Part shown: positions 2,094 to 64,000 of the stretch, one piece after another
Numbering within the stretch: position 1 is the stretch's first letter
How the letters are laid out: every line of letters begins with the position of its first letter
NCBI GenBank assembly: GCA_006738865.1
Contig: AP019701.1
Location: 1,794,001-1,858,000, forward strand
DNA: 64,000 nucleotides
Direction: 5' to 3'
From: Allostella sp. ATCC 35155
GTDB lineage: Bacteria > Pseudomonadota > Alphaproteobacteria > ATCC43930 > Allostellaceae
Made by a program: the position numbers and the translations under genes
Notes under the pieces: generated by a model
What the model was told of the DNA's origin: nothing
Database searches by the model: none
The model's input: the letters and a program-made list of their open reading frames with translations, nothing else

Positions 2094-2927
2094 TCAACCG
2101 GCCTTGCGTCGAGAGCCGGCAGCGCCGGCCTGTTTCTTGGCGGGCTTCGCGGTCTTGGCGCCGGCGCTGCGGCGCAGCGCCTCGCGCAGGTCGACGACCT
2201 TCTCCTCGGCCGGGGCGCGGGGTCGCGGCGGCTTGCGGCCGGCCTGCTTGGCGCGGATCAGTTCGGCCAGCGCCGCCTCGTAGCGGTCCCCGAACGTTGC
2301 AGGCTCGAAATCGCCGCGCTTGGTGCGGATGATGTGGCGCGCGAGCTCGATCATCTCGGCATCGATCCGGCGCTTCGGCACCGCATCCAGGACGGTATCG
2401 GCCTCGCGCACCTCATAGTCGAAATGCAGCGTGGCGGCGGCAAGGCCATGGGCGAGCGGGGCCAGCAGCACCATGCGGTCGCGCCGGAAGAGGACCGTGC
2501 GACCCAGGCCGAGGACGTTCTCGGACTGCATGGCCGCCCGGATCACGGCGAACGCCTCGCGGCCGATGCGGTCGGTCGGCACCAGGAAGTACGGGCGGTC
2601 CCGGAATACGGGGTCGAAGGCGTCCGCGGGCACGAAATGCGCGATCTCGAGCCGGTGGGTGGAGGGGGGCACGACGGCGTCGATCTCCGCCTGCTCCAGC
2701 ACGACGAAGCGGCCTTCGCCGGTGTCGTAGCCCTTGACCTGGGCGTCGCGGGCGACCGGTCGTCCGGTCTCCTCGTCCACGAACTGGCGGCGGACGCGCC
2801 GGCGGGTGCGCCGGTCGACGATATGGAGCCGGATCCGCTCGGCCTCGGAGACGGCGGCGTGGAGGGCGACGGCGCAGCTGAGGGCGCCGAGTTCGAGGTG
2901 TCCCTTCCAGATCGCCCGGTGGCCCAT
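2094..2927 (-). CDS. ku: Ku DNA end-binding protein
   Basis: Bacterial Ku homologue, 277 aa. It forms a ring on broken DNA ends and recruits LigD. The start MGHRAIWKGHLELG is the usual Ku opening (W-K-G-x-L); further family features are the LVPTDRIGREAF region and a lysine- and arginine-rich C-terminal tail (residues about 235-277), typical of bacterial Ku tails that contact DNA and LigD. It sits 11 bases after the DUF4142 gene and 3 bases before ligD, all on the same strand, so a DUF4142-ku-ligD transcript is likely. I chose this ATG because a longer in-frame opening upstream runs through the DUF4142 gene and has no Ku similarity. Confidence 0.95.
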   Translation of the reverse strand: MGHRAIWKGHLELGALSCAVALHAAVSEAERIRLHIVDRRTRRRVRRQFVDEETGRPVARDAQVKGYDTGEGRFVVLEQAEIDAVVPPSTHRLEIAHFVPADAFDPVFRDRPYFLVPTDRIGREAFAVIRAAMQSENVLGLGRTVLFRRDRMVLLAPLAHGLAAATLHFDYEVREADTVLDAVPKRRIDAEMIELARHIIRTKRGDFEPATFGDRYEAALAELIRAKQAGRKPPRPRAPAEEKVVDLREALRRSAGAKTAKPAKKQAGAAGSRRKAG

Positions 2928-56115: not shown

Positions 56116-56317
56116 CGCGCCACAGAACGACAATTCGGGGGAAGGCCGGGGCGCGATGCCCGGGCCTGGGGCGCGCGGCGAGGAGTGCCGGTCGGCGTCG
56201 GGGGCCGACCTGGATCGGCGAACCGGAGGCGTCGTCCTTCCTGTCGGCATTGGCCGGCCCCAGTCAGTGGTCCCGCGACCGAGCGTCGCCGGGATTGAGA
56301 GAGGTTTCGTTTCTCCC

Positions 56318-58096
56318 GTGCCGTTTCCAATCATGAGTGCGCCCCTCGCGCAGGCGCTCGCCGCGCGCGACTATGCCGAGCCCACCCCCGTCCAGGCCGC
56401 CGTCCTCGAAGCCGAGGCGCATGAGCGCGACCTGCTGGTGTCCGCCCAGACCGGGTCGGGCAAGACCGTGGCCTATGGCCTGGCGTTCGCCTCCACGCTG
56501 CTGGGCGACGCCGAGCGGCTGCCGCGTGCCGGCCAGCCGCTGGCGCTCGTCGTCGCCCCGACCCGCGAGCTGGCCCTGCAGGTCCACCGCGAGCTGACCT
56601 GGCTCTATGCCCAGACCGGCGCGGTCGTCGCCGCCTGCGTCGGCGGCATGGATCCAGGCGCCGAACGGCGCCGCCTTCAGGCCGGTGCCCATATCGTCGT
56701 CGGCACGCCGGGACGCCTGCGCGACCATCTCGAGCGCGGCGTGCTGGTGTTCGACGCGCTGGCGGCCGTCGTCCTCGACGAGGCCGACGAGATGCTCGAT
56801 CTCGGCTTTCGCGAAGACCTGGAATTCCTGCTCGACGCGACCCCGCCGGAGCGCCGGACGCTGCTGTTCTCGGCGACGCTGCCGCCGGACATCGTCAAGC
56901 TCGCGGTGCGCTATCAGCGCAATGCCCACCGGATCGCCGTGGTCGGCGCCGAACGCGGCCATGCCGACATCGAGTATCGCTGCGTGCGGGTGCATCCGCG
57001 CGCCATCGAACTCGCCGTCGTCAACGTGCTGCGCTTCATCGAGGCGCCGAGCGCCATCGTCTTCTGCAACACGCGGGAGGCGGTGCGCCATCTGCTGGCG
57101 ATCCTGCTCGAGCGCGGCTTCGCCGCCGTCGCCCTGTCGGGCGAACTCAGCCAGAACGAGCGCAACCATGCGCTGCAGGCGCTGCGGGACGGGCGCGCCC
57201 GGGTCTGCGTGGCGACCGATGTCGCGGCGCGCGGCATCGACCTGCCCAATCTCGGCCTTGTCGTCCATGCCGAGCTGCCGCACGACCCCGAAGTCCTGCA
57301 GCATCGCAGCGGCCGTACCGGCCGGGCGGGGCGCAAGGGCGTCAGCATCCTGATGGTGCCGGCGAACCGGCGACGCCGGGCCGAGTTGCTGCTTTCCGCG
57401 GCCCGGGTCGGCGCCAGCTGGAGCGGTCCGCCGACGGCCGACGATATCCGCGGCCTCGACCGCGAACGCATGCTGGCGGACCCGCTGCTGAGCGAGCCCG
57501 TGGGCGAGGAGGATCTCGCGCTGGCGCAGGCATTGCTGGCCGACCGTTCGCCGGAGGCCGTGGCCGCGGCGCTGGTGCGGGTCTGGCGCTCGCAGCGGCC
57601 GGCGCCCGAGGAAGTCTATGATCCCGGCGTCGACCGCGGCCCGCGCGAGCGGACCGTGACCGCGGCGCCGGATCGCGCATATGACCGCGCACAGGATCGC
57701 GCGCCCGGCGGGGGCAAGCCGCGGCTGGCCGGGCGCGGCGTCTGGTTCCGCCTCAATGTCGGGCGGCAGAAGAACGCCGATCCGCGCTGGCTGCTGCCCA
57801 TGATCTGCCGCCAGGGCATGATCACCAAGGCCGAGATCGGCGCCATCCGCATCTTCGACCGCGAGACGCGCTTCGAGGTCGCCGAGCAGGCCGTCGACGG
57901 CTTCATGACGGCCATCCGGCGCCTGGAGCGCGGCGAGGTGCGCATCGAGCAGATGCCGCTGGATGGGCACCGTCATGACGTGCACAGGCCGGATGGGCAC
58001 AGCCGTGACGGGCACATCGAGGGCGCAGTCCGCCGCACTCCGCCGCGCCAGAACCGGACCGATCAGCGCCCGCCGCGGACCGGCCGGGCAGCCTGA
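56318..58096 (+). CDS. DEAD-box RNA helicase with DbpA RNA-binding domain
   Basis: ATP-dependent RNA helicase of 592 aa. Q-motif PTPVQAAVLEAEA, motif I SAQTGSGKT, Ia PTRELALQ, II DEAD, III SAT, V TDVAARGIDL, VI HRSGRTGRAG. Residues about 465-530 form a DbpA/CsdA RNA-binding domain (GVWFRLNVGRQKNADPRWLL), pointing to ribosome assembly or cold-shock roles. The tail is histidine-rich (DGHRHDVHRPDGHSRDGH). GTG at 56318 gives the family-like PFP opening; an ATG five codons later also works. Confidence 0.92.
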   Translation: MPFPIMSAPLAQALAARDYAEPTPVQAAVLEAEAHERDLLVSAQTGSGKTVAYGLAFASTLLGDAERLPRAGQPLALVVAPTRELALQVHRELTWLYAQTGAVVAACVGGMDPGAERRRLQAGAHIVVGTPGRLRDHLERGVLVFDALAAVVLDEADEMLDLGFREDLEFLLDATPPERRTLLFSATLPPDIVKLAVRYQRNAHRIAVVGAERGHADIEYRCVRVHPRAIELAVVNVLRFIEAPSAIVFCNTREAVRHLLAILLERGFAAVALSGELSQNERNHALQALRDGRARVCVATDVAARGIDLPNLGLVVHAELPHDPEVLQHRSGRTGRAGRKGVSILMVPANRRRRAELLLSAARVGASWSGPPTADDIRGLDRERMLADPLLSEPVGEEDLALAQALLADRSPEAVAAALVRVWRSQRPAPEEVYDPGVDRGPRERTVTAAPDRAYDRAQDRAPGGGKPRLAGRGVWFRLNVGRQKNADPRWLLPMICRQGMITKAEIGAIRIFDRETRFEVAEQAVDGFMTAIRRLERGEVRIEQMPLDGHRHDVHRPDGHSRDGHIEGAVRRTPPRQNRTDQRPPRTGRAA

Positions 58097-58109
58097 GCCG
58101 CCCGCGCCT

Positions 58110-58208
58110 TTAGGCCCGGCAGACCGGCCGGGCCATCTCGCTGCGGCGCTTCTCGCCGGGCATGCCGATGTCCTGCATCGGATGCTCGTCGAGGGACGCC
58201 GGGCAGCG
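58110..58208 (-). pseudogene. decayed 3' part of a DUF1127 gene
   Basis: The minus strand reads RCPASLDEHPMQDIGM and on to RRSEMARPVCRA-stop, matching 22 of the last 32 residues of the intact DUF1127 protein at 63280-63447. At the DNA level 58133-58208 is about 91% identical (69 of 76) to 63303-63378. The 5' half and start codon are missing. A 7-base GC hairpin (58113-58134) at its end may serve as terminator for the helicase gene. Confidence 0.8.
58133..58208 (-). repeat. 76-base direct repeat, left copy
   Basis: Same orientation as 63303-63378, 69 of 76 bases identical. It flanks the FecI-FecR-TonB cassette on the left. Confidence 0.85.
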
Positions 58209-58290
58209 AATGTGAATTGAGAGCGCGTCGCAATTGCACTAAGGTCGGTGCGCCGGGATCGGGCCGGGCGAGCGTGATCGGACAGCGCCA

Positions 58291-58806
58291 TTGACGAAGA
58301 AGGACCTGACGGACCTGTTCCTCGCCCATCGGCGCGGGCTTCACGCCTTTCTGAACCGAAAGCTGCGGAATCCCGATGTCGCTGCCGACCTGACCCAGGA
58401 GACCTTCCTGCGCTTCGCCGAATTCCGGGCGGGAAATCCGACGGTCGCGATCGCGCACGAGCGCTCCTACATCTACCGGACGGCACACAATCTCGCGATC
58501 GACCATCTGCGTCGCGAGCGGCAGGCGCCGACCGACAGCGCCGACGAGGCCGCGATCGCCGAGGTCGCGGACGAGCTGCCGTCGCAGGAGACCATCGTCA
58601 GCGGCCGGAGCGAACTCGACCGCATCCGCGAGGCGCTGCTCGAACTCCCCGAACGGACCCGCCAGGTCTTCGCCTTGGCCCGCATCGAGGGGCTGATCTA
58701 TCAGGAGGTCGCCGATCGCCTGGGGATATCGACCAGTTCCGTCCAGAAGCATCTGATGGTGGCGACAAGGCACGTCATGCTGCGGCGTCGCCGCGACCGC
58801 GACTAG
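58291..58806 (+). CDS. FecI-like ECF sigma factor
   Basis: Sigma-70 family ECF factor of 171 aa. Region 2 (LFLAHRRGLHAFLNRKLRN; LTQETFLRFAEF; YIYRTAHNLAIDHLRRER) and region 4 with a helix-turn-helix (IYQEVADRLGISTSSVQKHL). Downstream genes encode FecR and an STN-bearing TonB receptor, the standard surface-signalling trio. Start is TTG at 58291; no ATG or GTG fits. Iron control is probable, but no Fur box was recognised. Confidence 0.93.
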   Translation: MTKKDLTDLFLAHRRGLHAFLNRKLRNPDVAADLTQETFLRFAEFRAGNPTVAIAHERSYIYRTAHNLAIDHLRRERQAPTDSADEAAIAEVADELPSQETIVSGRSELDRIREALLELPERTRQVFALARIEGLIYQEVADRLGISTSSVQKHLMVATRHVMLRRRRDRD

Positions 58807-58894
58807 GCAAATCCCGCACTCCGCGTTACCGGGTCGGGAGCGTTCCTCCGTCCCAATCAAGGGCAGATGTTCGCCGAACGGCACCGGGTGGAAG

Positions 58895-59920
58895 TTGGAC
58901 AAGAGCGTGGACAGCAGCGGCGAGCGACAGGACGAGATCGACACCACCGCGGCGGCATGGGCGGCGCGCCTCGGCGGCGATCCTTTGTCCGAGGCCGAGG
59001 GTCGCGAACTCGATCGCTGGCGTGCGGCAACGCCCGCGAACGAGGCCGCCTTCGTCGAGGCGCAGGCGGCCTGGGACGAAATGGGAAAGCTGCGCTTCGT
59101 CCCCGGCGCATTGCGGGACGACATCGTCCCACCGCCCGCGATGTCCCGTGGCCCGGCCGCTGCGGCCCGCGTGCGCCGTATGTCCCGGTGGACGCGCATG
59201 GCAGCAGCGGCTGCATGCCTGCTGTTCGTGCTCGCCGGGTTCGCCGTCTGGAACGGCGATCCCGTCGTCATGCTGACGGCGGACTACCGGACCGCCCCTG
59301 GCGAGCAACGGCTTGTCGCGCTGTCGGACGGAAGCACCGTCGCCCTCGGGCCGGCCAGCGCGATTGCGGTCGACTATGGCGAGCACGCCCGCCGGGTGAA
59401 GCTGCTCTCCGGCCTGGCGTATTTCACGGCCGTGCCGACGGGGGGCAGCGAATCTCGACCATTCGTCGTCGAGGCGGCGCAGGGGACTGCGCGGGCGCTC
59501 GGCACCCGCTTCATGGTCGAGCACCTTGCTTCGGGGGCCGAGGTCACGGTCGCGGAGCACAAGGTCGAGGTGGCGCTTGCCGGGGAGGCGGGCGACCGCT
59601 CGATCGTCGTCGTCGCGCCGGGCGAGGCGGTGCGCTACTCGGACGCCGGCATGGGTGCCGTTCATGCCGTCAATGTCGCGCGCGCGACGGCCTGGCAGCG
59701 TGGTCGCCTGATCTTCGACAGCGTCCCGCTGGGCGAGGTGGTGGCCGCGCTCAACCGATACCGCCGCGGCCGGATCTTCGTCGCCGACCCGGTGCTTGCT
59801 TCGCGCAAGGTCAGCGGCGTGTTCGAGACCGCGGCGTGGGATGCGGCGCTGGCCACCGTCGTGCGGGATCTGCGGATCTCCGCGGCCTCGCTGCCGCCCC
59901 TGGTGACCGTGCTCTACTGA
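58895..59920 (+). CDS. FecR-like anti-sigma/sigma-regulator protein
   Basis: Single-pass inner-membrane protein of 341 aa. The N-terminal cytoplasmic FecR_N part (AWAARLGGDPLSEAEGRELD, residues about 20-65) binds the sigma factor; the membrane helix is near residues 102-119; the periplasmic FecR domain (TAPGEQRLVALSDGSTVALG) ends in an STN-like segment (LGEVVAALNRYRRGRIFVAD) that contacts the receptor. It starts with TTG at 58895, or GTG at 58907, 88 bases after the sigma gene. Confidence 0.92.
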   Translation: MDKSVDSSGERQDEIDTTAAAWAARLGGDPLSEAEGRELDRWRAATPANEAAFVEAQAAWDEMGKLRFVPGALRDDIVPPPAMSRGPAAAARVRRMSRWTRMAAAAACLLFVLAGFAVWNGDPVVMLTADYRTAPGEQRLVALSDGSTVALGPASAIAVDYGEHARRVKLLSGLAYFTAVPTGGSESRPFVVEAAQGTARALGTRFMVEHLASGAEVTVAEHKVEVALAGEAGDRSIVVVAPGEAVRYSDAGMGAVHAVNVARATAWQRGRLIFDSVPLGEVVAALNRYRRGRIFVADPVLASRKVSGVFETAAWDAALATVVRDLRISAASLPPLVTVLY

Positions 59921-59951
59921 CTGCTGGCTCCCGTCCCGCCGGCGGGGCCAC

Positions 59952-59957
59952 GGAAAA
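59952..59957 (+). promoter_or_regulatory. possible FecI-type -35 element
   Basis: GGAAAA, close to the GGAAAT of FecI-dependent promoters, with TC dinucleotides at suitable distance downstream, in the 145-base gap before the TonB receptor gene. Tentative. Confidence 0.25.
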
Positions 59958-60065
59958 TCGCGAATCTCTTACCGACTCCCTGCCGAATTCCCGTCCCAGC
60001 GAATAGGGCGATCTGCGAACCGGACGCATTTCGATGACGAGGGCTTTGGCTTGAAAGGACGAGGA

Positions 60066-62492
60066 ATGGGGGCGAGCACGGTGCGCCGCAGGGGGGCGAA
60101 GGCCGTTGTCAGGCTGGGGTGGATCGCGGCGGGGGCGGCGCTCTGCGCCGTCCAGGGAGTGGTGGCGCCGGCATCGGTCGCGGCCCAGGAGGCGGGCCCG
60201 TCGCCGTCGATCACCCGGCGGGCGATCGAGTTCGACATTGCGGCGCAAGGCCTCAACTCCGCGCTGCTCAGCTTCGCCGAGCGGGCCGGCATCCAGCTCA
60301 TCTACGACGTGGCCATGGTCCGGGGGCTGCGGAGCGCGCGACTGCGCGGCACCTTCACCCCCCAGGAGGGCCTCGACCGCCTCCTCGCCGGAACCGGCAT
60401 GACCTACCGGTTCAGCGGCCCGAACACCGTAACGCTGCGGGTGGCGGTGACCGGCGGATCGGCTGGCGTGGTCGCGCTCGCGCCGGTGACGGTCGCCGGC
60501 CGGGCCGAGACGGGCACCGGGAGCTTCGGCGCCTACGAGGCCGGCAGCGCCACCAACATCCCCGTGCCGCTGATCGAGACGCCTGCGACCGTGAACGTCA
60601 TGTCGGCCGAAACGCTGGAACGGCTCAATGTCCAGCGGCTCGACGACATTCTTCAGTACATCCCGGGAACCGCTCCGGGAGCGTCCGGCAGCTCGATGAC
60701 CAATACCTTCACCATCCGGGGGTTCGAATCGTCCACGACCAGGGGCGGCAGCCTCGGATCCCGGGCAAACTCCGTCTATATCGACGGGCACCGGCCGGCG
60801 AGCCGCCACTACCACTACGACCGGTCGCTCTTCGAGCGGGTCGAGGTGCTGAAGGGGACCTCTTCGGTGCTCTATGGCGCCGCTTCGCCCGGCGGCATCG
60901 TCAGCTACAGCTCGAAGAAGCCGCTCTACGAGCACCGGAACGCGGCGTCCGCCTCCATCGGCAGCTTCGACACCCGACGCGGCTCCGTCGACCTCACCGG
61001 CCCGATCGGAGGCCTCAACGGGGTCGCCTACCGCCTGATCGCGACGGCGCAGGAATCGAACCAGGCGCTCACCGGCAAGAACCATTCGAGCAGCCACGAC
61101 GACCGCCTCATCGTGAAGCCGCAGGTCTCCTGGCAGAACGACGCCGGGACGCGGGTCGACCTCGCCTACGAGTACAGCCGGCAGGACAGCGTCGCCGATC
61201 CCGGCATCCTGCGCTTCAACGACGGGAGCTTCGGGTTCCGCGGGCCGTCGCTCGTCAGCGACGACAGCTTCACGAAGCACACCAACCACATCGCCACCGC
61301 GAGCATCTCCCATCCGCTGACCGACCAATGGTCGGTCTCGGTCGACGGCAGCTACGGCAAGAACCACATCGATGCCCTGTGGGATTCGGCCAACACGCGG
61401 ACCGCCCCGTCGCGAACGGCACTGATCGATCGGGACATCATTCGCTTCGAGACGGACTTCGAGCACATCGAAGGGCGCGCGAAGCTGCAAGGCGAGTACC
61501 AGATCGGGTCGGTCCGCAACACGATGACGATCGGCGTGTCGCAGCGCCGCGAATCCTACGACAGCAAGCGGGTCCAGCGGACCATCCGGGGATCGATCGA
61601 CCCGCTCGACCCGGTCTTCGCACCCGTGGGCGACCTCGGCCCCTACACCGGCACGGTCGAATGGACGATCAACGAGCGGGCCGTCTACCTGCAGAGCTTC
61701 GCCAGGGTGGGGTCGAAGCTGAAGCTGTTCGGCGGCCTCCGCTACACGGACGTCCGGACCGAGTTCAACGACAGCGGCGGCAGCGACAAGGCGCTCGACT
61801 ACTCGCTGGGCGCGATCTTCAACCAGAATCACTGGTTCAACCCGTTCATCAGCTATTCGACGTCCCTGACGCCGCAGGTGGGCACTCTGGAGTCCGGCGC
61901 GCCCGTACCCTTCTCCGAAGGCACGCAGTTCGAAATCGGCGTGAAGAGCCAATGGCTCGGCGAGGCGGTGGCGTCGACGGTCTCGATATTCCAGATCACC
62001 CAGACCAACCGGGTCGAAACGGACCCCAATGACCGCAGCTTGTCGAGGATTGCCGGGGACCAGGAGGTGAGAGGGGCGGAGCTGGAAATCGTCGGCCGAA
62101 TTACCGGCAATCTCAGCTTCATCGGCGGATACAGCTATCTCGACGCCGAGTTCACCGAGTCCGTCCAGTACAAAGGTAATACGCCCGCGAACGTGCCGAA
62201 GCACAAGGCGTCAGCCATGCTGAACTACAGCATCGAGACGAACTTCGGAACCTGGGATGCCGGACTGGGATACATCTATGTTCGCAATCGCCAGGGTGAC
62301 AACGAGAACTCCTACATACTGCCGGACTATCACCGGATCGATCTGAGCGTCGGGTGGCAGTATCGGGGAGTGGAGTTGCGCCTCCGAGCCGAGAACATAC
62401 TCGACAAGGACTATGTGTCCGGCTCCAGCGGTGTCTTCCTCAACCAGGGCCTGCCTCGCTCGTTCTTCCTGACGGCCAAGGCGACCTTCTGA
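60066..62492 (+). CDS. TonB-dependent siderophore receptor with STN signalling domain
   Basis: Outer-membrane receptor of 808 aa. Signal peptide to about residue 41; an STN domain (FDIAAQGLNSALLSFAERAG, residues about 55-125) that signals to FecR; plug domain (ETPATVNVMSAETLERLNVQ to about 270, with VEVLKGTSSVLYGAASPGG); then a 22-strand barrel ending in FLTAKATF with terminal Phe. The pattern is that of ferric hydroxamate/catecholate receptors, but the ligand is not determinable. The ATG at 60066 follows AAAGGACGAGG; a TTG at 60051 is a weaker alternative. Confidence 0.95.
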   Translation: MGASTVRRRGAKAVVRLGWIAAGAALCAVQGVVAPASVAAQEAGPSPSITRRAIEFDIAAQGLNSALLSFAERAGIQLIYDVAMVRGLRSARLRGTFTPQEGLDRLLAGTGMTYRFSGPNTVTLRVAVTGGSAGVVALAPVTVAGRAETGTGSFGAYEAGSATNIPVPLIETPATVNVMSAETLERLNVQRLDDILQYIPGTAPGASGSSMTNTFTIRGFESSTTRGGSLGSRANSVYIDGHRPASRHYHYDRSLFERVEVLKGTSSVLYGAASPGGIVSYSSKKPLYEHRNAASASIGSFDTRRGSVDLTGPIGGLNGVAYRLIATAQESNQALTGKNHSSSHDDRLIVKPQVSWQNDAGTRVDLAYEYSRQDSVADPGILRFNDGSFGFRGPSLVSDDSFTKHTNHIATASISHPLTDQWSVSVDGSYGKNHIDALWDSANTRTAPSRTALIDRDIIRFETDFEHIEGRAKLQGEYQIGSVRNTMTIGVSQRRESYDSKRVQRTIRGSIDPLDPVFAPVGDLGPYTGTVEWTINERAVYLQSFARVGSKLKLFGGLRYTDVRTEFNDSGGSDKALDYSLGAIFNQNHWFNPFISYSTSLTPQVGTLESGAPVPFSEGTQFEIGVKSQWLGEAVASTVSIFQITQTNRVETDPNDRSLSRIAGDQEVRGAELEIVGRITGNLSFIGGYSYLDAEFTESVQYKGNTPANVPKHKASAMLNYSIETNFGTWDAGLGYIYVRNRQGDNENSYILPDYHRIDLSVGWQYRGVELRLRAENILDKDYVSGSSGVFLNQGLPRSFFLTAKATF

Positions 62493-62545
62493 TGTGCCCG
62501 AGATTTTCTCCAGTCCCCGATGCCGCCCGCCAGCAGGAGCAGAAG

Positions 62546-63199
62546 ATGGCTGCCTACCCCGTTCTCGTGACGAAGTTCCGCGCGCTCGTCGGCGCGCTCG
62601 TTTCCTGCGTCCTGCTCGCGCAGCTGGCGGTCGCCGCGCCGCCCGGCCCGGATGGGAACCGGGGACATCTCAACCGCCTCCTGCACAATCCTGCGGTGAC
62701 GAGCCATCTCGGCCTCACGGCCGAGCAGGCGCGGTCGGCCCAGGCGATCTCCAACGGGGTGGTGGAAAGCCATAGGGCGGACTTCGAGACGGCGCTGAAG
62801 CCGAGCGGCAAGGCCGAGCGGGTCGTGCTGGTCCGCGACCTGTTCATGACCGTCAATGCGGACACTTTCCGCCGGCTGAACGGCGTGATCAGCGCGCCGC
62901 AGCTGGAAAGGCTTCGCCAGATCGAGATTCAGACCTTCGGCATTCGGGCGCTCGCCCGGCCGAGCGTCATCCAGAGTCTGGAGCTGACGCCCGATCAGAT
63001 CGGCCGTCTGGCCAAGGTCGGCGATGCGATGGGCGAGCAACTGTCCGGGATCCACAAGGCCTCGGGGATGAGCCCGGCTGCGAAGACGGAGGCGACGACG
63101 GGAATCCGCCGCGCCGCTCTCCAGGGCGCACGGGAGATCATGAGCGCCGAGCAATGGGTCCGGTGGGAATTGCTGATCGGGGCCGAGTTCCGTCGGTAG
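62546..63199 (+). CDS. secreted helical protein with repeated [ST]xxQ motifs
   Basis: Protein of 217 aa with a signal peptide (FRALVGALVSCVLLAQLAVA, cut near residue 31). The body is helical and carries four spaced motifs: LTAEQ (57-61), ISAPQ (116-120), LTPDQ (147-151) and MSAEQ (199-203), suggesting a two-fold internal repeat. Single LTxxQ motifs mark the Spy/CpxP periplasmic chaperone family. It follows the TonB receptor by 53 bases with AGGAGC upstream. Function unknown; likely a periplasmic partner of the uptake system or of its stress response. Confidence 0.7.
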   Translation: MAAYPVLVTKFRALVGALVSCVLLAQLAVAAPPGPDGNRGHLNRLLHNPAVTSHLGLTAEQARSAQAISNGVVESHRADFETALKPSGKAERVVLVRDLFMTVNADTFRRLNGVISAPQLERLRQIEIQTFGIRALARPSVIQSLELTPDQIGRLAKVGDAMGEQLSGIHKASGMSPAAKTEATTGIRRAALQGAREIMSAEQWVRWELLIGAEFRR

Positions 63200-63240
63200 C
63201 GCGGAACCGGCCTTTCGATCCTGTTGCGATCCGCGTCGCG

Positions 63241-63273
63241 CCGGCCGGGTGGTCCCTTGGGCGCCCCGGCCGG
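63241..63273. terminator. bidirectional hairpin after the secreted [ST]xxQ gene
   Basis: Nine-base perfect stem CCGGCCGGG with a 15-base loop, between the convergent ends of the secreted-protein gene (63199) and the DUF1127 gene (63280). Confidence 0.5.
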
Positions 63274-63279
63274 TCTTGC

Positions 63280-63447
63280 TCAGGCGCGCCAGATGGGCTT
63301 GGTCATCTCGCTGCGGCGCTCCTCGTCGGACATGCCGATGTCGTGCATCAGATGCTCGTCGAGGGACGCCAGGCAGCGGCGGTGGAGGCTGCGCTCCTCC
63401 CAGGTCTGGAGGAAGCGGGTGAAGGAGCGGGTGATCATCTGCGCCAT
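63280..63447 (-). CDS. DUF1127 (YjiS-like) mini-protein
   Basis: A 55-aa basic protein, MAQMITRSFTRFLQTWEERS then HRRCLASLDEHLMHDIGMSD and a short tail. DUF1127 proteins are small, arginine-rich and abundant in alphaproteobacteria; some bind RNA and affect phosphate or carbon metabolism. The ATG at 63447 follows AGGGAG. A decayed, same-orientation copy lies at 58110-58208, on the other side of the FecI-FecR-TonB cassette. Confidence 0.87.
   Translation of the reverse strand: MAQMITRSFTRFLQTWEERSLHRRCLASLDEHLMHDIGMSDEERRSEMTKPIWRA
63303..63378 (-). repeat. 76-base direct repeat, right copy
   Basis: Part of the intact DUF1127 gene. Matches 58133-58208 at 69 of 76 bases in the same orientation, 5.17 kb apart. 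Confidence 0.85.
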
Positions 63448-63535
63448 GGTCGGAACTCCCTGAAAGGTTCGGGCCTCGCTGCCCGGTGTCCTTCAGTCGC
63501 AGCCGCCATGGCGGCGGTTCATGCGCGCACAGGTT

Positions 63536-64000
63536 TCATTTGTTACCGGGCCCGGCCGTCCGCAGGCCGTCGATTCCAGCCTTCATCGCCTGCTGGAAGA
63601 GGACGCTGTCGACGCCGTAGGCGAGCGCGCCGAAGCCCAGCTCCATGTAGCGCCGGCCGGTCGCGACATCGCCGCAGAGGAAGCCCGCGGTCTTGCCGTG
63701 GCGGCGGCAGGCGGCGACGACGGCGCGGATGGCGGCTTCGTACTTGGGATGGTCGAACTGGCCGTCGATGCCCAGCGCGTTGGTCAGGTCGAAATGGCCG
63801 ACCCAGCCGATGTCGATGCCGGGCGTCGCCATGATCGCATCGACATTCTCCAGCCCCGCGGCGGTTTCGATCAGGGCGATGACGATGGTGCGGCGGTTGG
63901 CTTCGCGCATCTTCTCCAGATGGTCGCCGAGGTCGTAGTCGTCGTGCGGCATCCCGAAGGCGAGGCCGCGCACGCCTTCGGGCCGGTAGCGGCACCAAGC
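63536..64000 (-). CDS. HpcH/HpaI family aldolase, 5' end outside the window
   Basis: The C-terminal 154 residues of a class II pyruvate-dependent aldolase (2-dehydro-3-deoxyglucarate or 4-hydroxy-2-oxo-acid aldolase type). Seen: IALIETAAGLENVDAIMA with the metal Glu, DIGWVGHFDLTNALG with the metal Asp region, and the substrate-loop segment after it. It cleaves 2-keto-4-hydroxy acids to pyruvate and an aldehyde. The stop is at 63536; the start lies beyond base 64000. Context upstream is unseen, so the pathway is unknown. Confidence 0.88.
   Translation of the reverse strand, partial: AWCRYRPEGVRGLAFGMPHDDYDLGDHLEKMREANRRTIVIALIETAAGLENVDAIMATPGIDIGWVGHFDLTNALGIDGQFDHPKYEAAIRAVVAACRRHGKTAGFLCGDVATGRRYMELGFGALAYGVDSVLFQQAMKAGIDGLRTAGPGNK

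Follow-up and report, generated by a model that had tools for sequence, protein, structure and literature searches.

The DNA analysed here, hereafter called the window, is a stretch of 64,000 nt of the star-shaped bacterium Stella sp. ATCC 35155 (contig AP019701.1, positions 1,794,001 to 1,858,000). Near its right end, four plus-strand genes forming a Fec-type cassette lie between two copies of a DUF1127-like gene, both on the minus strand. The left neighbour of this arrangement is the gene of a DEAD-box/DbpA-like RNA helicase (56309-58096, plus strand; Pfam DEAD, Helicase_C and DbpA), and the right neighbour is the gene of an HpcH/HpaI aldolase (63536-64000, minus strand; Pfam PF03328), which runs past the window end. 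The left DUF1127-like copy (58110-58208), 13 bases past the helicase stop, corresponds to the decayed last 33 codons (codons 24-55 and the stop) of the right copy, an intact gene encoding 55 aa (63280-63447). Next to the left copy lies the cassette promoter region (58209-58290, plus strand), and an 80-bp spacer (63200-63279) separates the last cassette gene from the intact DUF1127-like gene.

The first cassette gene encodes an ECF (extracytoplasmic function) sigma factor of the FecI type (171 aa; 58291-58806; Sigma70_r2 40.5 bits, r4_2 52.3 bits; TIGR02937), and the second a FecR-type anti-sigma factor/regulator (341 aa; 58895-59920; FecR 65.5 bits, E 5.9e-18; DUF4880 35.4 bits, E 9.3e-9), in which a FecR_C match stays under the Pfam cut-off at E 0.017. 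The product of the third is a siderophore-type TonB-dependent receptor of 813 aa that includes an STN signalling domain (60051-62492; STN 41.8, Plug 78.2 and barrel 155.7 bits); it also scores 270.9 bits against TIGR01783 (cut-off 223.5). Pfam thus bears out the single unit of sigma factor, FecR and receptor that a preliminary description of this DNA had placed between the two copies. By analogy with FecI-FecR-FecA, the STN domain presumably passes the ligand signal via FecR to the sigma factor, which presumably then transcribes the receptor gene and the fourth gene (62492-63199, 235 aa). The latter had been described as coding for a secreted protein; the gene is there and its product is LTXXQ-like, while export is only probable, judged from the N-terminus. 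The window protein itself has no Pfam hit, and weak LTXXQ matches occur in four of the five aligned family members (PF07813, best E 0.00076). Its structural model is helical and of low confidence (predicted local distance difference test, pLDDT, 65; predicted template modelling score, pTM, 0.46), the best Foldseek match to the model is uninformative (E 0.89), and a sequence search of solved structures gave no match at E<=1. No recombinase was found among the four cassette genes (overlapping antisense open reading frames were not scanned) and no transposase among the genes at 56309-64000; in addition, a plasmid collection contained no near DNA match.

The two DUF1127-like copies form a direct repeat (58112-58208 and 63282-63378) with 87% identity over 97 nt without gaps. 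Counted from the stop codons (minus strand; TAA at 58110-58112 and TGA at 63280-63282), they agree at 85 of 99 bases and 22 of 32 residues, confirming the preliminary description of an intact right and a decayed left copy in the same orientation; its count of 69 identical bases in 76 (checked by eye on the difference list) and of 22 residues in 32 (checked on the translations) is also correct. When the left fragment was searched against its own genome, in which 40 of 106 candidate places were scored, the right copy was found with an E value of 3.9e-27, and the next place scored reached only 36.5 bits (E 0.0066), which excludes a repeat by chance. The 14 differences between the copies are spread 5/5/4 over the three codon positions, as fits one copy decaying freely. 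According to the difference list, the longest identical run is 20 bases. RecA recombination requires a minimum of identity, and since the longest run is so short, the spontaneous loss of the cassette by recombination between the repeats, foreseen in the preliminary description, should be rare now. The intact copy scores just under the Pfam cut-off for DUF1127 (PF06568; 22.3 bits against 23.3, E 1.1e-4), and is a divergent, DUF1127-like member rather than a full member by score.

The locus was compared with those of S. humosa ATCC 43930 and S. vacuolata ATCC 43931, whose genomes, like that of ATCC 35155, are closed, and with a fourth Stella genome of about 570 contigs (G002). The helicase gene is syntenic in S. 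humosa and S. vacuolata, and the aldolase gene in all three relatives. In S. vacuolata, helicase and aldolase almost abut, with neither cassette nor DUF1127 between them. In S. humosa, a single DUF1127 gene (L028:6330-6497) but no cassette comes after the helicase; some 5.4 kb of other DNA, in which genes for an IS1595-type transposase and a DUF6471 protein lie (L028:6649-11970), then separates DUF1127 from the aldolase. This S. humosa gene is the positional counterpart of the intact copy in ATCC 35155, and the two regions are 71% identical over 264 aligned columns when the upstream region is included (L028:6330-6586). Therefore, the helicase-aldolase junction is variable among the three closed genomes, and cassette-free versions of it exist. 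The empty site with a single DUF1127 gene that the preliminary description had named as support for insertion was found in part: both sisters are cassette-free, a single DUF1127 occurs only in S. humosa, with other DNA before the aldolase, and S. vacuolata has none. Taken with the presence of the cassette elsewhere in both sisters, these sites support an insertion at the junction, and none of the relatives compared holds both copies here. In G002, the aldolase gene adjoins an amino-acid-type transporter gene.

A DNA search of 41 genomes recovered the cassette as a block only in ATCC 35155, S. humosa and S. vacuolata, the other genomes giving short partial matches. The block is 81% identical to that of S. 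vacuolata (58216-63198) and 78% identical to that of S. humosa (58253-63192). In both relatives the same four genes adjoin radC, and the radC-side flanks of the two cassettes are mutually syntenic; the opposite flank has an SDR gene in S. humosa and a LysR gene in S. vacuolata. Beside these two cassettes no DUF1127 gene was found in a family search, and the best match of a loose tblastn search was at E 0.15. The radC region is present in ATCC 35155, about 1.3 Mb from the cassette; there, similarity to S. humosa breaks off at the radC stop codon (L075:6752), with no cassette behind it. The 80-bp spacer lies outside the block common to the relatives, and the idea that it holds the decayed tail of radC, a pointer to the donor site, was rejected: comparisons with three radC ends gave P values of 0.33, 0.42 and 0.055, and the ungapped comparison on one gave 0.79.

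The fourth protein was found in three of 43 genomes of the order, namely the three closed Stella genomes, and not in G002. Within a class sample of 385 genomes, four had a match at E<=0.001: ATCC 35155, G136, G146 and, weakly, G134 (E 3.6e-4). G136 and G146, from two other families of the class, have all four genes in other neighbourhoods, and a loose tblastn search detected no DUF1127 piece at either cassette (best E 0.15). G134 was dismissed as a host, as tblastn found no cassette gene in the matched stretch; two Rhizobiaceae loci (L081 and L082), which have a sigma factor, FecR and a distant receptor (25-26%) and gave no match to the fourth protein, were also set aside. Receptor and LTXXQ-like protein are 76% and 59% identical to their counterparts in G136 (L090:6198-11118), against 47% and 45% for sigma factor and FecR; the corresponding values in G146 (L091:9223-14240) are 65% and 56% against 32% and 32%. 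The far better conservation of receptor and LTXXQ-like protein suggests that this pair is the functional core, with regulators that may evolve fast or be swapped. Next to the G136 cassette are genes for a metal transporter of the ZnuABC/Mnt type and for a DtxR-family regulator (L090:12018-15552), so that in some hosts the ligand may be something other than an iron carrier. Upstream of the sigma factor gene, a three-cassette alignment reveals a Fur-box-like element that is degenerate in ATCC 35155. Scored against a 19-mer Fur consensus, the best site reaches 10/19 here (shuffle P 0.180), 12/19 in S. vacuolata (0.040), 14/19 in S. humosa (0.002), 13/19 in G136 (0 of 500 shuffles) and 13/19 in G146 (0.024).

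The age of the cassette within the genus was assessed with five core genes of the two loci as a reference (helicase, sfsA, map, aldolase and radC). At four-fold sites the receptor gene is 0.660 and 0.646 identical to those of S. humosa and S. vacuolata, compared with 0.602-0.702 for the five core genes; the other cassette genes range from 0.517 to 0.736. S. humosa and S. vacuolata are sisters, with 84.9% identity over 6.1 kb of flanks, against 80.7% and 81.5% to the window genome, and at four-fold sites the receptor fits the pattern of this pair, as do three of the five core genes. The GC content at third codon positions is ordinary, at 0.856-0.888 in the cassette and 0.863-0.915 in the five core genes of ATCC 35155. 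Because receptor divergence and composition are core-like and a single copy of the cassette was detected, recent foreign acquisition is unsupported, and the data on balance favour descent from a common ancestor with a change of place over recent transfer. The preliminary idea of an acquisition or duplication of the cassette is accordingly disfavoured. An old transfer into the genus is possible, since the fourth protein is restricted to few genomes class-wide and G136 and G146 hold all four genes elsewhere.

The direct repeat was placed in time by comparing the left fragment with 19 DUF1127 copies of the four Stella genomes; a family search at E<=1 gave 5, 5, 8 and 5 DUF1127-like matches in ATCC 35155, S. 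humosa, G002 and S. vacuolata, and four weak G002 matches (E 0.15-0.42, below the cut-off) were excluded. The fragment is much more similar to the right copy (local score 129) than to the runner-up, a G002 copy on contig C228 (score 53); thus none of the 18 other copies supplies the nearer paralogue that would have spoken for another origin of the fragment. Per 99 bases, left and right copies share 85 identities, the right copy and that of S. humosa 67, and the left copy and that of S. humosa 61. In a quartet with the recJ-side copy of G002 as the fourth sequence, informative sites are 17:0:0 for pairing left with right. Meanwhile, at the 14 differences S. humosa agrees with the right copy in nine, with the left copy in three and with neither in two. 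Because each of the two copies has the other as its nearest relative among those compared, a duplication within the ATCC 35155 lineage is probable, and the insertion most likely took place there too, unless gene conversion intervened. As a separate observation, the recJ-side copy of G002 (L077:1-109) resembles the helicase-side copy of S. humosa (L028:6330-6497; 80% over 105 bp, 79/99) more than the recJ-side copies of ATCC 35155 and S. humosa (61/99 and 64/99), hinting that DUF1127 copies themselves may change place or convert.

We consider it reasonably probable that an inherited cassette was relocated once, by illegitimate repair, into the DUF1127-like gene in the ATCC 35155 lineage. The four-gene Fec-type cassette would have been resident in the genus before the three species split and, with radC as its presumed older site, would have stayed there in both sister species. 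In ATCC 35155 or its forebears it would have entered the DUF1127-like gene between helicase and aldolase, with a duplication of 99 bp at the 3' end of this gene as the result; the aldolase would have kept an intact neighbour, and the 3' fragment displaced towards the helicase would be decaying. By eye, similarity among the three cassettes begins at 58209, the base after the DUF1127 fragment and just before the Fur-box-like element, while the BLAST blocks begin at 58216 (S. vacuolata) and 58253 (S. humosa) and the former ends at 63198. The right edge of the cassette is its last stop codon, and similarity to the sister cassettes stops at the stop of the LTXXQ-like gene. The repair, with no dedicated recombinase, might have been end joining of the Ku type, in which a staggered break was filled in, or the copying of a fragment; all four Stella genomes carry Ku genes, so the end-joining route is available. 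Two of these genes lie about 3 kb apart in ATCC 35155, one in the window (2346-2888, minus strand) and one just left of it (G000:C1:1792814, 1796346); S. humosa and S. vacuolata have two each and G002 has one.

Several observations weigh against a single relocation of an inherited cassette. The LTXXQ-like gene, with four-fold identities of 0.517 and 0.567, is more diverged than the core genes, and the sigma factor gene is closest between ATCC 35155 and S. vacuolata (0.875 at the nucleotide level, against 0.842 between S. humosa and S. vacuolata). G002 is of no help in deciding, being without the cassette and without a close helicase homologue (38% identity for its best match; G136 reaches 70% and G010 66%), and its radC contig ends short of the critical junction. 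That Ku genes are present is no evidence that they were used, the relocation does not account for the 80-bp spacer, and a duplication ending at a stop codon is a shape that site-specific integrases also leave. In addition, the direction of the move is deduced from how old the repeat appears, and gene conversion could give an old one a young look.

In a converse history, the cassette was ancestral between helicase and aldolase and moved to radC in the ancestor of S. humosa and S. vacuolata, leaving a single DUF1127 gene. On position alone this is equally parsimonious, and one DUF1127 gene does stand beside the S. humosa helicase; however, the two copies should then be about as distant from each other as from S. 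humosa, yet, conversion aside, the 85 identities contrast with 67 and 61, and we regard this history as very unlikely. A tandem duplication of DUF1127 might also have come first, with an unrelated rearrangement later putting the cassette between the copies or at their edge and truncating one. DUF1127 genes are small and multi-copy in each genome, and the repeat ends at a stop codon as a gene-like unit would, but no second copy occurs within about 10 kb of any of the 13 DUF1127 loci examined elsewhere in the three closed genomes, and the inner edge of the fragment coincides, by eye, with the cassette edge, which is simpler to obtain from a single event. We give this order of events a low probability. 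The repeat test of the 13 loci recovered the known repeat when run on the window, and its sole self-match was an inverted one of 29 bases in L105. For the suggestion that DUF1127 serves as a landing site, these loci are equally discouraging: none has a flanking second copy, and DUF1127 is missing beside the sister cassettes.

An intact gene at one end and a displaced direct 3' fragment at the other is the usual layout of an integrative element, and the locus might be the remnant of one whose integrase, later lost or acting in trans, took the 3' end of DUF1127 for its attachment site; the 3' end of the gene would have been restored by the element and the old one displaced to the far side. Against this, the four genes that take up the interval include no recombinase, composition and receptor divergence are native, and no DUF1127 piece accompanies the cassette in S. 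humosa, S. vacuolata, G136 or G146. Moreover, the right copy is closer to S. humosa than the left copy is, although the model makes the 3' half of the right copy foreign. Such a remnant is unlikely. An IS (insertion sequence)-flanked composite transposon was rejected for want of a transposase at 56309-64000; an IS1595-type transposase does occur at the same junction in S. humosa. More speculative is a cassette that relocates recurrently as a block from promoter to last stop without a recombinase of its own, break repair duplicating about 100 bp of the target. This notion draws on the three different left flanks (DUF1127 fragment, SDR and LysR genes) with similarity starting from about the same base, and on the yet other neighbourhoods in G136 and G146; we hold it to be quite improbable, and the left edge that the cassettes share is more plainly explained if nothing but the functional promoter remains alignable.

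A single relocation of an inherited cassette would mean that a whole iron-signalling system changed its place with no transposase or integrase left and with the duplication of a target gene as its scar; apart from this, the locus is ordinary. Like the DUF1127 small proteins YjiS and CcaF1, the intact copy is short with a conserved C-terminal core; it differs in scoring just under the Pfam cut-off, and is notable only as an insertion target. The cassette shares with FecI-FecR-FecA modules the order of ECF sigma factor, FecR-domain regulator and STN receptor, and possibly an upstream Fur-box-like element, which is clearer in the relatives than in ATCC 35155; it adds an LTXXQ-like gene that accompanies the receptor in all five genomes examined. 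The E. coli fec region is presented as probably horizontally acquired and associated with IS elements, inversions and deletions (PMC9249621), whereas at the present site there is no transposase and receptor divergence is core-like within the genus. Islands at the 3' ends of coding genes are known, for example SGI1 at trmE (PMC8409611). The locus in ATCC 35155 shows the same intact target and displaced direct-repeat 3' fragment, but its cassette has no integrase, is native in composition, and carries no DUF1127 piece at the four other places where it occurs. The layout of an island at a 3' end can therefore hold a native cassette, and layout alone is no proof of horizontal transfer.

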